Assembly: GCA_016201015.1 (NCBI GenBank)
Contig: JACQDQ010000192.1
Location: 1 to 36,692 of the forward strand
DNA length: 36,692 nt
Source of the DNA: Pseudomonadota bacterium
GTDB taxonomy: Bacteria > Pseudomonadota > Alphaproteobacteria > CACIAM-22H2
Reading direction: 5' to 3'
Translations under genes and position numbers: made by a program
Part shown: positions 1,623 through 36,692 of the stretch, piece after piece
Layout of the letters: every line of letters begins with the position of its first letter
Numbering within the stretch: the stretch's first letter is position 1
Notes under the pieces: generated by a model
The model's database searches: none
Seen by the model: only the letters and a program-made list of their open reading frames with translations
What the model was told of the DNA's origin: nothing

Positions 1623-2231
1623 CTAACTCCGGCGCACCAGGGCGAGACCGATTCCGGCGCCGATGAACAGGCCGCCGCTCAGGCGATTGAGCAGCCGTCC
1701 ACTGACGTTGAAGACGCCGCGCGCGCGGCCGGCGAGGCAGGCCCAGGCGCTGTCGAGCAACGCTGCAATGACGACGAACGTCACCGCCAGCAACGCGAGC
1801 TGCGCGGCGGGATCGCCGGCCGCATCGATGAACTGCGGCAGGAACGCCGCGTGAAACAGCATCGTCTTCGGATTTGACAGCGAGACGACGAAGCCGCGCC
1901 ACATCAGCGGCGGCGCCGCCGGCGCGGCCGGCTGTTCCATGTTGTCCGGGGCGGCGCGCCACTGGCGCACGCCGAGATAGACGAGATAGGCGACCCCCGC
2001 CCAGCGCAGCCATTCGAACCACTGCGACAGCAGGATCAACAGCGCCGTCATTCCCAGCACGGTGACGGCAACCTGAATCGCCTGCGCCGCGCTGGTGCCG
2101 GCGACGGTGATCAAGCCGCTGCGCGTGCCGTGGCGGATGCTGGTGCCGACGATGACCGCGACATTGGGGCCGGGAATGAGAATGAGGATGGTGCTGGCAA
2201 GAACGAATGCAAGGTAAAGATTCAGCGTCAT
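1623..2231 (-). CDS. LysE/RhtB-family amino-acid exporter
   Basis: This 202-aa inner-membrane protein has the usual LysE/RhtB layout of about six hydrophobic segments. It carries the family motif near the N terminus: the first helix ends in IPGPNVAVIVGTSIRHGTRSG, and the central loop reads VSLSNPKTMLFHAAFLPQF (the family's NPK...FF.A.LPQF). LysE-type proteins export amino acids or other small metabolites. The ATG at 2231 was preferred to a longer frame because it is preceded on the minus strand by a GGGGGAC ribosome site at good spacing and begins directly before the first helix. It is convergent with the Rieske operon (15 bases between stops). It lies downstream of the oxidoreductase genes but has its own 80-base leader. 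Substrate unknown. Confidence 0.88.
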   Translation of the reverse strand: MTLNLYLAFVLASTILILIPGPNVAVIVGTSIRHGTRSGLITVAGTSAAQAIQVAVTVLGMTALLILLSQWFEWLRWAGVAYLVYLGVRQWRAAPDNMEQPAAPAAPPLMWRGFVVSLSNPKTMLFHAAFLPQFIDAAGDPAAQLALLAVTFVVIAALLDSAWACLAGRARGVFNVSGRLLNRLSGGLFIGAGIGLALVRRS

Positions 2232-2311
2232 GTCGCGTCCCCCGGCGCCGTGATCGACACCGAACAAACTACCTTATCGTGGCGCAGGCGGATAGGCCGC
2301 GTGCCGCGGCG

Positions 2312-3367
2312 CTACCTGAGCGCGGCGTTGACCTTGGCCAGCACCCCGGCGCCGGGGCACAGCTCGCGCTCGCCGAGCTCGTTCAACGGCGCGGCGACGG
2401 TGTTGAGACCGGCATGCAGATCGACCGGTTCGGGATCGACGAAGAGCAGTCCGGTGACGACCTCGCCGGCGGCCTGGCGCTGCTGCAGATAGGTCATCGC
2501 CGCAATGCGGTCGTGCGGATCATAGTTCGTGGCGAGCTTGCGCAGATGGAGGATCGAGCCGTCGTGCTGCACGACGGTCTCCATCGTGCCCGGCGCATAA
2601 TCGGCGGTGATCTCGGCGCGCGGCGACATGATGTCCAGGCGGTTTACCGCCTCGTTATGCTCGCGCACATAGTCGAAGCTCTTGGTCGAGCCGGGATGGT
2701 TGTTGAAGGCGACGCACGGGCTGATGACGTCGATGAACGCCGCGCCTTGATGCAGGATCGCCGCCTCGATCAGCGGCACCAGCTGCACCTTGTCGCCGGA
2801 GAAGCTGCGGGCGACGAAGGTCGCGCCGAGCTGCAGCGCCATGCCGATGAGGTCGAGCGGAGCGTCGGAATTCACCGCGCCGCGCTTGCTCTTGGAGCCG
2901 CGGTCGGCGGTGGCGGAGAACTGTCCCTTGGTCAGGCCGTAGACGCCGTTATTCTCGACGATATAGACCATGTTGACGCCGCGGCGCATGACGTGCGCGA
3001 ACTGGCCGAGGCCGATCGAGGCGGAATCCCCGTCGCCCGACACGCCGAGATAGATGAGATCGCGATTGGCAAGATTGGCGCCGGTGAGCACCGACGGCAT
3101 GCGCCCGTGCACGCTGTTGAAGCCGTGCGAGTTGCCGAGGAAGTAGGTCGGCGTCTTCGACGAGCAGCCGATGCCCGACAGCTTGGCGATGCGGTGCGGC
3201 GGCAGGTCGAGATCGAAGCAGGCCTGGATGATCGCCGCGCTGATCGAATCGTGGCCGCAGCCGGCGCACAGCGTCGAGACCGAGCCCTCGTAGTCCCGCC
3301 GCGTATAGCCGAGCTTGTTGGTCGGCAGCGCGGGATGATGAAGCTTGGGCTTGGCGATATAGGTCAT
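2312..3367 (-). CDS. korB: 2-oxoacid:acceptor oxidoreductase beta (TPP) subunit, KorB-like
   Basis: This 351-aa protein is the thiamine-diphosphate subunit of a 2-oxoacid:ferredoxin oxidoreductase. The TPP/Mg motif is seen as GDGDSASIG (111-119) with NN at 139-140. Four cysteines, C34 and C37 (CAGCGH), C68 (GIGCSS) and C218 (ISPC), match those that bind the [4Fe-4S] cluster in two-subunit enzymes of this family. It would decarboxylate a 2-oxoacid, probably 2-oxoglutarate, with CoA to give the acyl-CoA, passing electrons to the cluster. Its ATG overlaps the alpha-subunit stop in an ATGA, indicating translational coupling. Substrate preference (2-oxoglutarate, pyruvate, or branched or aromatic oxoacids) is inferred from overall likeness only. 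Confidence 0.9.
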   Translation of the reverse strand: MTYIAKPKLHHPALPTNKLGYTRRDYEGSVSTLCAGCGHDSISAAIIQACFDLDLPPHRIAKLSGIGCSSKTPTYFLGNSHGFNSVHGRMPSVLTGANLANRDLIYLGVSGDGDSASIGLGQFAHVMRRGVNMVYIVENNGVYGLTKGQFSATADRGSKSKRGAVNSDAPLDLIGMALQLGATFVARSFSGDKVQLVPLIEAAILHQGAAFIDVISPCVAFNNHPGSTKSFDYVREHNEAVNRLDIMSPRAEITADYAPGTMETVVQHDGSILHLRKLATNYDPHDRIAAMTYLQQRQAAGEVVTGLLFVDPEPVDLHAGLNTVAAPLNELGERELCPGAGVLAKVNAALR

Positions 3368-5205
3368 GACATCACCTTGCGCAGCGGCCTGACGTTGGCC
3401 GGATCGAGCTGGTCGGCGATCCGCCCGAGGATGAACCGGGCGGTGATCGGCGTGCCGTCGTAGTGGAGGACGGCGACGAGCTTGGCGGGATCGAGGCCGC
3501 CCTCGGCGAGCAGCAGCGTGCGCAGCTGCGCGTCGCGATTCTGCTCGACGACGAAGACTCGGTCATGCGCGGCGACGAAGTCGATCACCTCGTCGTGGAA
3601 CGGAAAGCCGCGCAGGCGCAGCGCATCGAGCGGCAGGCCGCGCGCCTCGAGGCCGTCGAGGGCCTCCGCCATCGCCGGGCTGGTCGAGCCGTAATAGAGG
3701 ACGCCGAAGCGGCTCGGCTGCTTGGCGGCGCGGCGCACCGGCCGCGGCACCAGGCTCTTTGCCGTCGTGAATTTCTTGAGCAGCCGCTGCATGTTGTCGG
3801 CGTAGGCGTGGCCTTCCTCGGTGTAGCGCGCATAGCGGTCGCGCGAGGTGCCGCGGGTGAAGAACGAGCCGCGCTTCGGGTGCGTGCCGGGATAGGTGCG
3901 GTAGGGAATGCCGTCGCCGTCGACGTCGAGATAGCGGCCGAAATCCTTGCCGGCCTCGAGATCGTCGTAGGTCATCACCTTGCCGCGGTCGTAGCGGCGC
4001 GCGTCATCCCAGGCGAGCGGCGCGCAGAGCCGCTCGTTCATGCCGATATCGAGATCGAGCATCACGAAGATCGGCGTCTGCAGCCGGTCGGCGAGGTCGA
4101 AGGCGAGCGCGCCGAACTCGAAGCATTCGTGCGGATCTTCGGGCAGCAGCAGCACGTGCTTGGTGTCGCCGTGCGAGGCATAGGCGCAGCACAGGATATC
4201 GCCCTGCTGCGTGCGCGTCGGCATGCCGGTCGACGGGCCCGAGCGCTGCACGTCGAAGACCACCGCCGGGATCTCGGCGAAATAGGCGAGCCCCAGGAAC
4301 TCCTGCATCAGCGAGATGCCGGGGCCGGACGTGGCGGTGAAGGCGCGGGCACCGTTCCATGCCGCGCCGATGACGATGCCGATCGAGGCCAGCTCGTCCT
4401 CCGCCTGGATGATGGCGGCGCGGTTCTTGCCCGTATCGCGGTCGACGCGGTAACGGCGGCAATGGCTGGCAAAGGCCTCGGCCAGCGACGAGGACGGCGT
4501 GATCGGGTACCAGGCGGCGACCGTGGCGCCGCCATAGACGCAGCCTAGCGCCGCGGCGCTGTTGCCTTCGAGGAAGACGCGGTCGCCGACCTTGTCGGCG
4601 CGCCGCACGCGCAGGCCGATCGGACATTCCAGGTTCTGCAGCGCCCAGTCGCGGCCGAGATGGAGCGCCTGCACGTTGGGCGCGATCAGCTTGTCCTTGC
4701 CCTTGAACTGCTCGCCGATGAGCCTCTCGACCTCATTGACGTCGAGATCGAGCACGGCCGACAGCGCGCCGACATACATGATGTTCTTGAACAGCTGGCG
4801 CTGGCGCGGATCGCTGTAGGTGCGGTTGCTGATCTCGGTCAGCGGCACGCCGATGATGTTGATGTCATCGCGAAACTTCGAGCGCGGCAGCGGCTTCGAC
4901 GAATCGTAGAACAGATAGCCGCCGGGCTCGATGCCGGCGACGTCCTGGTCCCAGGTCTGCGGGTTCATGGCGACCATGAGGTCGACGCCGCCCCGCGTGC
5001 CGAGATAGCCCGCCTCGGAGATGCGCATCTCGTACCAGGTGGGCAGCACCTGGATATTGGAGGGGAAGATGTTGCGCGGCGTGCACGGCACGCCCATGCG
5101 CAGGATCGCCTTGGCGAAAAGCTGGTTGGCGCTCGCCGAGCCGGAGCCGTTGACGTTGGCGAACTTGACGACGAAGTCGTTGATGCGTTCTAGCGGCTGT
5201 GGCAT
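3364..5205 (-). CDS. korA: 2-oxoacid:acceptor oxidoreductase, fused gamma-alpha subunit, KorA-like
   Basis: This 613-aa protein has an N-terminal gamma domain (about 1-190; N20-GSGSASANQ and a TRGG at 70-73) fused to the alpha pyrimidine-binding domain. That domain carries the hallmark YPITPSSSLAE (233-243) and a TSGPGISLMQE segment. Fused gamma-alpha subunits are typical of two-subunit KorAB enzymes. The ATG at 5205 was chosen because the homologous N terminus begins there; the open frame continues upstream only as a shadow of the preceding gene. The start lies 16 bases inside the end of the upstream FAD subunit gene, and the stop overlaps korB, so the three genes form one coupled unit. The C-terminal domain (about 480-613) should contribute to CoA and partner contacts by family analogy. 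Confidence 0.92.
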   Translation of the reverse strand: MPQPLERINDFVVKFANVNGSGSASANQLFAKAILRMGVPCTPRNIFPSNIQVLPTWYEMRISEAGYLGTRGGVDLMVAMNPQTWDQDVAGIEPGGYLFYDSSKPLPRSKFRDDINIIGVPLTEISNRTYSDPRQRQLFKNIMYVGALSAVLDLDVNEVERLIGEQFKGKDKLIAPNVQALHLGRDWALQNLECPIGLRVRRADKVGDRVFLEGNSAAALGCVYGGATVAAWYPITPSSSLAEAFASHCRRYRVDRDTGKNRAAIIQAEDELASIGIVIGAAWNGARAFTATSGPGISLMQEFLGLAYFAEIPAVVFDVQRSGPSTGMPTRTQQGDILCCAYASHGDTKHVLLLPEDPHECFEFGALAFDLADRLQTPIFVMLDLDIGMNERLCAPLAWDDARRYDRGKVMTYDDLEAGKDFGRYLDVDGDGIPYRTYPGTHPKRGSFFTRGTSRDRYARYTEEGHAYADNMQRLLKKFTTAKSLVPRPVRRAAKQPSRFGVLYYGSTSPAMAEALDGLEARGLPLDALRLRGFPFHDEVIDFVAAHDRVFVVEQNRDAQLRTLLLAEGGLDPAKLVAVLHYDGTPITARFILGRIADQLDPANVRPLRKVMS

Positions 5206-6977
5206 GCGGCCCCCGCATGTGTCATGTCGAGATAGTATTTCTGCATGTCCCAGGCTCCGGTCGGACAGCGCTCGGCGCACAGGCCGCAGTGCAGGCAGAC
5301 GTCCTCGTCCTTGACCATGACGCGGCCGGTTTTCAGGTCCTGCGACACGTAGAGGTCCTGGCCGGCGTTCTTCGCTGGCGCGCTCAGGCGCTGGCGTATA
5401 TCCGCTTCCTCGCCGTTCGGCGTGAAGGTGATGCAGTCCATCGGGCAGATGTCGACGCAGGCGTCGCACTCGATGCACAGCGTGTGGGCGAACACGGTTT
5501 GCACATCGCAGTTGAGACAACGCTGCGCCTCGGCAAAGGCGAGCTTCGGATCGAAGCCGAGCTCGACCTCCTCCTTGATATTGCGCAAGGTGATCGTCTG
5601 GTCCTTGAGCGGCACCTTGTAGCGCAGGTCGAGCGAGACGTCGTTGTCGTAGCTCCACTCGTGGATTCCCATCTTCTGGCTCATCACGTCGACCATCGGC
5701 GGCGGCCGCACGTGCACGTCCTCGCCCAGGCATAGCTTGTTGATCGAGATCGCCGCGTCGTGGCCGTGCGCCACCGCCCAGATGATGTTCTTGGGCCCGA
5801 ACGCGGCATCGCCGCCGAACAAGACGTTGGGCAGGCTCGATTGCATCGTCGCCGGATCGACCTTCGGCATGCCCCAGCGGTCGAACTCGATGCCGACATC
5901 GCGCTCGATCCAGGGGAAGGCGTTCTCCTGGCCGACCGCGACGAGCACATCGTCGCATTCCATATGAATTTCGGGCTCGCCGGTCGACACCAGGTTGCGG
6001 CGGCCCTTGTCGTCATACTTCGCCGCGACCTTTTCGAACATCATGCCGGTCAAGCGCCCGCCGGCATGGGTGAATGATTTGGGAACGAGGAAGTTATGGA
6101 TCGGGATGCCTTCGTGCATGGCATCCTCCTTCTCCCACGGCGACGCCTTCATCTCCTCGAAGCCGCTGCGCACGACGACGCGCACATCCTCGCCGCCGAG
6201 GCGCTTGGACGAGCGGCAGCAATCCATCGCCGTGTTGCCGCCGCCGAGCACGATGACCCGCTTGCCGATCTTGTTGATATGGCCGAACGAGACGCTGGCC
6301 AGCCAGTCGATGCCGACATGGATGTTGGCCGCCGCCTCCTTGCGCCCCGGCATGTCGAGGTCGCGGCCGCGCGGCGCGCCCGTGCCGACGAAGATCGCGT
6401 CGTAGCGCTCGGCGAGCAGCGCCTTGAAGCTGTCGATGCGGCGCCCCAGCCGCAGTTCCGGCCCCATGTCGACGATGTAGTTCACTTCCTCGTCGAGCAC
6501 GGTCTCGGGCAGGCGAAACTTGGGAATCTGCGTGCGCATCATGCCGCCGGCCCGCGCATCGCCATCGTAGATGACGACCTGGTAGCCGAGCGGCAGAAGA
6601 TCGCGCGCCACCGTCAGCGAGGCCGGCCCGGCGCCGATGAGGGCGACGCGCTTGCCGTTCCTGGTGCTCGGCGCCTTTGGCAGGAGGGAGCGGATGTCGT
6701 CCTTGTAGTCGGCCGCGACGCGCTTCAAGCGGCAGATCGCGACCGGCTCCTTCTCCACGCGACCGCGGCGGCAGGCCGGCTCGCAGGGGCGGTCGCAGGT
6801 GCGCCCGAGGATTCCGGGGAAGACGTTGGATCGCCAGTTGATCATGTAGGCGTCGCTGTAACGGCCCGCGGCGATCAGCCGGATATACTCTGGCACGGGC
6901 GTATGGGCGGGGCACGCCCACTGACAATCGACAACTTTGTGGAAGTAGTCGGCAACGCCAATATCGGTAGGCTTCAA
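5190..6977 (-). CDS. FAD/NAD(P)H oxidoreductase with GltD-type core and two 4Fe-4S motifs, electron-transfer subunit of the Kor complex
   Basis: This 595-aa protein has a GltD-like N-terminal Cys region (WACPAHTP and TCDRPCEPAC), an FAD dinucleotide-binding site (ALIGAGPASL, about 113-122), an NADPH site (VIVLGGGNTAMDCC) and a C-terminal double ferredoxin module. The module's Cys motifs are CIECDACVDICPMDC (501-515) and CLHCGLCAERCPTG (561-574). It probably moves electrons between NADP(H) and the KorAB iron-sulphur cluster or a ferredoxin. A similar three-part 2-oxoglutarate:NADP+ oxidoreductase is known from Azoarcus evansii. The start is a TTG at 6977 preceded by GAGGAG with 8 bases spacing; an ATG directly behind GAGGAG is out of frame and stops after two codons. 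First gene of the korCAB-like operon. Confidence 0.88.
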   Translation of the reverse strand: MKPTDIGVADYFHKVVDCQWACPAHTPVPEYIRLIAAGRYSDAYMINWRSNVFPGILGRTCDRPCEPACRRGRVEKEPVAICRLKRVAADYKDDIRSLLPKAPSTRNGKRVALIGAGPASLTVARDLLPLGYQVVIYDGDARAGGMMRTQIPKFRLPETVLDEEVNYIVDMGPELRLGRRIDSFKALLAERYDAIFVGTGAPRGRDLDMPGRKEAAANIHVGIDWLASVSFGHINKIGKRVIVLGGGNTAMDCCRSSKRLGGEDVRVVVRSGFEEMKASPWEKEDAMHEGIPIHNFLVPKSFTHAGGRLTGMMFEKVAAKYDDKGRRNLVSTGEPEIHMECDDVLVAVGQENAFPWIERDVGIEFDRWGMPKVDPATMQSSLPNVLFGGDAAFGPKNIIWAVAHGHDAAISINKLCLGEDVHVRPPPMVDVMSQKMGIHEWSYDNDVSLDLRYKVPLKDQTITLRNIKEEVELGFDPKLAFAEAQRCLNCDVQTVFAHTLCIECDACVDICPMDCITFTPNGEEADIRQRLSAPAKNAGQDLYVSQDLKTGRVMVKDEDVCLHCGLCAERCPTGAWDMQKYYLDMTHAGAACHSR

Positions 6978-35621: not shown

Positions 35622-36692
35622 TTAGCCGACCAACCCCGGCACCAGCTCGCCGCCCGCGTCGACGGTGAGCGTCGAGCCCTTGAAATCGCGGGCGCGGTCG
35701 ATGGGCTCAATCGCGCCGCCCAGATGCTTGGCCAGGAACGCCTCGGTGACGGCACGGAAGGCGATCTGATTCTCCGGGCGTGAGAAGCCGCCCCTGGGCG
35801 ATCAGGATCGGCCGGAACGCGCGGTCGATATGGGTAAGCGGCGAGCGCGCCTTGAGGAACGCTTGGCCTTCGTCGGTGTCGGGATCGCCCAGCCGGTTCT
35901 TCCACACGCTGAACCATGGACTCCAATAGGGTGGGATCGCCGCCATGAAGGTGAGCAGATTGGCGATGCCGAAGATGTCGACGATGCAGGCGAATGCTTC
36001 CGGCGTCTTGGTCGCCGCCGTCAGCGCCGAATACCCGCCGTAGCTCGCGCCATAGAAGCCGACGCGTTTGGGGTCGGCGATGCCGCGGGCGACCGCCCAA
36101 TCGACCGCGTCGATCAGGTCGTCGTGCATCTTGCCGCCCCACTCGCGATCGGCGGCGGTGACGAAGGCTTTGCCGAACCCGGTCGACCCGCGGTAATTGA
36201 CGCTCAGCACCGCGTAGCCGCGATTTGCGAGCCATTGATGCGTCGGCCAATAGCCCCATTGGTCGCGTGCGTAGGGGCCGCCGTGGATCGCCAGCACCAT
36301 CGGCGCATTCCTGGCGCCGGTCTCCGGCAGCGTGAGATAGCAAGGAATGGTGAGGCCGTCGCGCGCGCGGAAGCTGACCGCCTCGAGCGGCCGCAGCGCC
36401 ACGCCGTCGAGAGTCTTGCGTGCCTTGAGCAGCGGACGCAGACGCCGCGTGCCGCGATCATAGAGCGCGTATTCCGGGCTCGCCGTGTCGCGCTCGGAGT
36501 AGACGATGACTTTGCGGCCGTCGGCGCTGAACTGACTGAAGTAGAGGTCGCCCGCCGTGGCCGCACGGATCGCCTTCAAGTCGGCGGCAAAAGCGGGATC
36601 GACGGCGCGCCAGCGCTGGCGCTCGAACATGGCGCCGGCGGCGAGCGGCCGGCCCGATGCTCCCCTGACAACGAGTTCGTTGATATCGGCCT
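35622..36692 (-). pseudogene. S9 prolyl-oligopeptidase-type peptidase, 5' end outside window, broken by an internal deletion
   Basis: The frame is open from the right edge (ADINELVVRGASG...) into a typical S9 alpha/beta-hydrolase domain with LAIHGGPYARDQWGYWP, VNYRGSTGFGKAF and the nucleophile motif GFYGASYGGYSAL. At RPILIAQG (about 35797-35820) the reading stops making sense and runs as Arg/Pro-rich nonsense to a stop at 35707. The normal C terminus resumes in another frame as GFSRPENQIAFRAVTEAFLAKHLGG and ends with TAA at 35622. In this family about 35 residues, with the catalytic Asp (GxxDxRV) and His (DEGHGF), should lie between these points; here they are gone. It is a real pseudogene or a sequence error. 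Confidence 0.85.

Follow-up and report, generated by a model that had tools for sequence, protein, structure and literature searches.

A gene for a serine peptidase of family S9 (prolyl oligopeptidase family) lacks 104 nt that are present in its relatives, including the codons of the catalytic Asp and His, and continues behind the joint in another reading frame; the genome assembly contains no intact copy. The gene lies on the minus strand at the high-coordinate end of the analyzed stretch of 36,692 nt, here called the window, which is one whole contig, C380, of the genome G000 (5.33 Mb in 551 contigs). A recent inactivating deletion, or a strain allele carrying it, would explain this gene, and the probability that it is present in the cells is put at roughly 0.5.

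Structure of the gene at the contig end

The gene occupies positions 35622 to 36692, the last base of the contig, and continues past it, so that the window holds its C-terminal half while the 5' part lies off the contig. This half (35791..36692, minus strand) is in frame up to the joint. Its open frame at 36690..35791 contains the motifs HGGP and GASYGG, the latter with the Ser nucleophile of the GxSxGG pattern, and ends in RPILIAQG. The part before the joint matches PF00326 (Peptidase_S9) with 110.6 bits against a cut-off of 22.6 (E 1e-31), but only across profile positions 7-152 of 213, whereas the intact relative L037 covers positions 1-212. Based on this domain above the cut-off and on the N-terminal half found on contig C220, the gene is, by sequence, of S9 origin.

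The joint lies at 35789..35791. Directly after RPILIAQG, the sequence proceeds from 35789 downward with GGC TTC TCA in another frame for 55 codons, up to a stop codon at 35624-35622. This 3' remnant (35622..35789) translates as GFSRPENQIAFRAV...GLVG and is out of frame with the preceding part. If the first frame is read straight on, an unrelated tail of 27 residues results (35707..35790), ending with a stop at 35707. As far as the assembly goes, this anatomy is certain, and the coordinates given in the original prediction, which had described a frame-shifting deletion joining RPILIAQG to GFSRPENQ, are right.

Comparison with relatives

Relatives came from one scan of a genome collection that confirmed 135 candidates, of which the best 80 loci were used. 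The spacing between the QG before the joint and the GF behind it is exactly 35 codons in all 18 pattern-matched loci out of 19 (L037-L055); the remaining locus, L042, which reads LVAQG and was missed by the pattern, also has 35 codons according to its translation. In a BLAST comparison with L037, the piece before the joint ends at position 3901 and the piece behind it starts at 4006, leaving 104 nt missing. Since this is one nucleotide less than 35 codons, the frame changes at the joint. The loss of about 35 residues that had been estimated from knowledge of the family is thereby borne out by alignment to an intact homolog.

The 56-residue 3' piece alone has no Pfam match, and its identity therefore rests on the relatives. 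It is 82% identical to the L037 protein over 55 codons and is found with the C-terminus of L037 at an E-value of 5.5e-25; the match is not due to chance. Across the 300 residues that precede the joint, the gene is 72-74% identical to copies from Rokubacteria metagenome-assembled genomes (L037-L040) and 67% identical to the copy from Reyranella (L042). All of these copies have the C-terminus of about 55 codons in common with the gene, but unlike it they still possess the 35-codon stretch that encodes Asp and His.

The triad order Ser-Asp-His is described for S9 peptidases in PMC12871690. L037 matches solved S9 enzymes, namely the amino acyl peptidase 5l8s (E 1.5e-51), the prolyl oligopeptidase 7c72 (E 2.4e-31) and the acyl-peptide hydrolase 5yzm (E 2e-25), all of which span the stretch that is missing here. 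According to the relatives and to the alignment of L037 with structures such as 5l8s, the Asp codon falls within the missing 104 nt and the His codon lies at their edge, with at most one base remaining. The claim that two of three triad residues are lost thus holds. When aligned to L037, 77 of the best 80 of the 135 candidates show the full set of Ser, Asp and His; in two (L108 and L111) these positions hold Cys, Asp and Gln, and the alignment of one (L069) stops before the His. The same deletion was found in none of these 80 loci.

L108 and L111 (both 2080-4239) are full-length homologs from ANME-2/Methanosarcinales, with HEGP in place of HGGP in addition to Cys for Ser and Gln for His. The dN/dS between them is 0.23, and one of the two genomes holds a 77% paralog with Ser/Asp/His motifs. 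They may represent a conserved pseudo-peptidase.

Sequence at the joint

In the nearest relatives, the left side of the joint reads CAGGGGCTC... or close variants and the right side ...CACGGCTTC, where the window reads CAGGGGCGGCTTC. With the lost bases taken from the relatives and not from the organism itself, only one nucleotide, the C, is common to both sides. The chance of at least one shared base at a random joint is 0.48 at the given base composition. A short-homology deletion mediated by a GGGGC-like sequence, as originally suggested, is not supported by this single-nucleotide overlap as judged against the relatives. It also does not fit because a slip between the GGGGC-like motifs would leave the His codon and the frame intact, and both are lost here.

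Other copies and the second half of the gene

Neither a second intact copy of the gene nor, in a search across all contigs of G000, the missing segment itself was found elsewhere in the assembly, and the gene is single-copy. A paralog on C456 with 36% identity keeps the Ser/Asp/His motifs as GQSYGG, RDPRV and AGHGY. For another on C332 with 29% identity no triad motif was matched, although the pattern may not fit this sequence.

With the N-terminal half of L037 as query, the 5' half of the gene was located right at the beginning of contig C220, in an open frame at 2-787 on the minus strand, where it is 71% identical to query residues 1-244. In the S9 family, this N-terminal half forms a propeller fold. 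Mapped onto L037, the pieces on C220 and C380 leave about 87 nt of the gene uncovered. The start of the gene on C220 reads HRRQFLG, which we take to resemble a twin-arginine signal, and the peptidase is probably exported. On C220 (L121:1-6000), the 5' half lies behind GntR regulator-, DapA- and TRAP transporter-like genes of the same strand, named by eye. A check for common gene order, in which six genes of C380 were compared with the flanks of L037-L055, gave no match at an E-value of 1e-5.

Deletion or assembly artifact

A true deletion would have removed 104 nt from the gene in one step, taking out the Asp and His codons and shifting the final 55 codons into another frame. Of the triad, the encoded protein would retain only the Ser nucleophile, and it should be inactive. 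Such a deletion would be of an ordinary inactivating kind, presumably arising by end joining without meaningful homology, and it would be recent and either fixed or carried by the assembled strain. Compared with L037, dN and dS amount to 0.219 and 0.66 in the piece on C220, to 0.170 and 0.73 in the piece before the joint and to 0.112 and 0.60 in the piece behind it, and against the other six relatives tested the last piece likewise fares no worse than the whole gene. No further lesion or decay was seen in the flanks, for which even the nearest relative, at a dS of 0.6 or more, is too distant to gauge relaxed selection. Since protein constraint is similar on both sides of the joint, any inactivation would be recent; equally, undecayed flanks mean that the loss is either recent or not real. 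The original prediction, which had noted two well-conserved flanks and proposed a recent event or an assembly error, is supported in these points. The other genes of the contig that were scanned with Pfam appear intact (34 protein queries, among them the pieces of the S9 gene and two antisense open frames).

The alternative of an assembly artifact, in which a chimeric read or gap closure bridged a low-coverage stretch while the gene of the organism is intact, is a serious one, although its probability stays below an even chance. The main argument for it, and against a true deletion, is the proximity of the joint, at about 900 nt, to a contig end where the gene is interrupted a second time and loses a further 87 nt. 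The chance of a random site falling so near to either end is 0.05. Two short losses within 1 kb suggest that this spot was probably poorly covered and poorly assembled, and the vicinity of the gene-breaking contig end points to poor read support. The undecayed flanks and the fragmentation of the genome into 551 contigs also fit an artifact. In addition, PMC11017572, which treats false pseudogenes in bacterial assemblies, reports that assembly errors associated with low coverage account for many putative pseudogenes. The cases covered there resemble the present one in having a single lesion, undecayed flanks and a fragmented assembly, but they concern frameshifts and internal stops, whereas here 104 nt are lost.

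Several observations speak against an artifact. A joint with an overlap of one nucleotide needs reads that carry it, or else a scaffolding step or join that leaves no mark. The unmasked sampled contigs contain no runs of N and thus give no sign of a scaffold join across an N gap, and the missing segment lies on no other contig. The GC content of the missing stretch is 67-69% in four relatives, which is not extreme, and GC drop-out at this internal gap is accordingly not supported; for the gap between C220 and C380 it is high, at 71-77%.

A mixture of strains, with intact and deleted alleles in the population and an assembler that followed the deleted path and ended the contig close by, would account for the break in the contig as well as for a joint supported by reads. 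This is improbable since no contig carries an intact copy of the segment and a mixture of alleles usually interrupts a contig right at the variant. That a truncated or frame-shifting gene yields a product with a use of its own is hardly credible despite the kept Ser motif and the conserved flanks, because this form is common to none of the best 80 of the 135 relatives, part of the hydrolase domain is gone with the frame shifted, and frameshifting could not restore missing codons.

Whether a deletion or an assembly join, the event would be of an ordinary kind and of little importance beyond this genome. The case cautions against calling a gene at a contig end a pseudogene without reads when it is interrupted once by the border and once by a silent loss of 104 nt.

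Host and origin of the gene

For ribosomal protein S3, G000 shows 86% identity to Reyranella and 64-65% to four Rokubacteria, with a match in 10 of the 11 genomes compared, and the host is therefore most likely an alphaproteobacterium. RecA, a further placement marker, gave no match above the Pfam cut-off in G000, which is 96% complete, but was present in all 14 control genomes. This is probably due to an unbinned or missing contig.

In contrast to the S3 marker, the peptidase gene has higher identity to the copies from Rokubacteria (72-74%) than to the alphaproteobacterial one from Reyranella (67%). Among 22 other genomes of the order, no match was found at an E-value of 1e-60, while weak S9 matches exist. 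The Rokubacteria-like sequence together with the lack of a close match in the order suggests a possible horizontal transfer. The combined scenario of a horizontally acquired peptidase that was truly and very recently inactivated in this lineage is rather doubtful; if true, the gene would have been caught between gain and loss.

Additional observations

A scan for frame losses covered 240,449 bases, including four wholly masked contigs that account for 10,479 N. It returned many ordinary gene borders and a few candidates, and one of five inspected by eye looks like frame loss. This candidate is a solute-binding-protein-like gene, named by eye, in L139 with an apparent frame change without a stop around position 6057 on the minus strand. 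At 2312-6977, the window further contains a 2-oxoacid:ferredoxin oxidoreductase-like cluster, in what is likely an alphaproteobacterium, with the domains TPP_enzyme_C, POR/POR_N and Fer4/pyridine nucleotide oxidoreductase.
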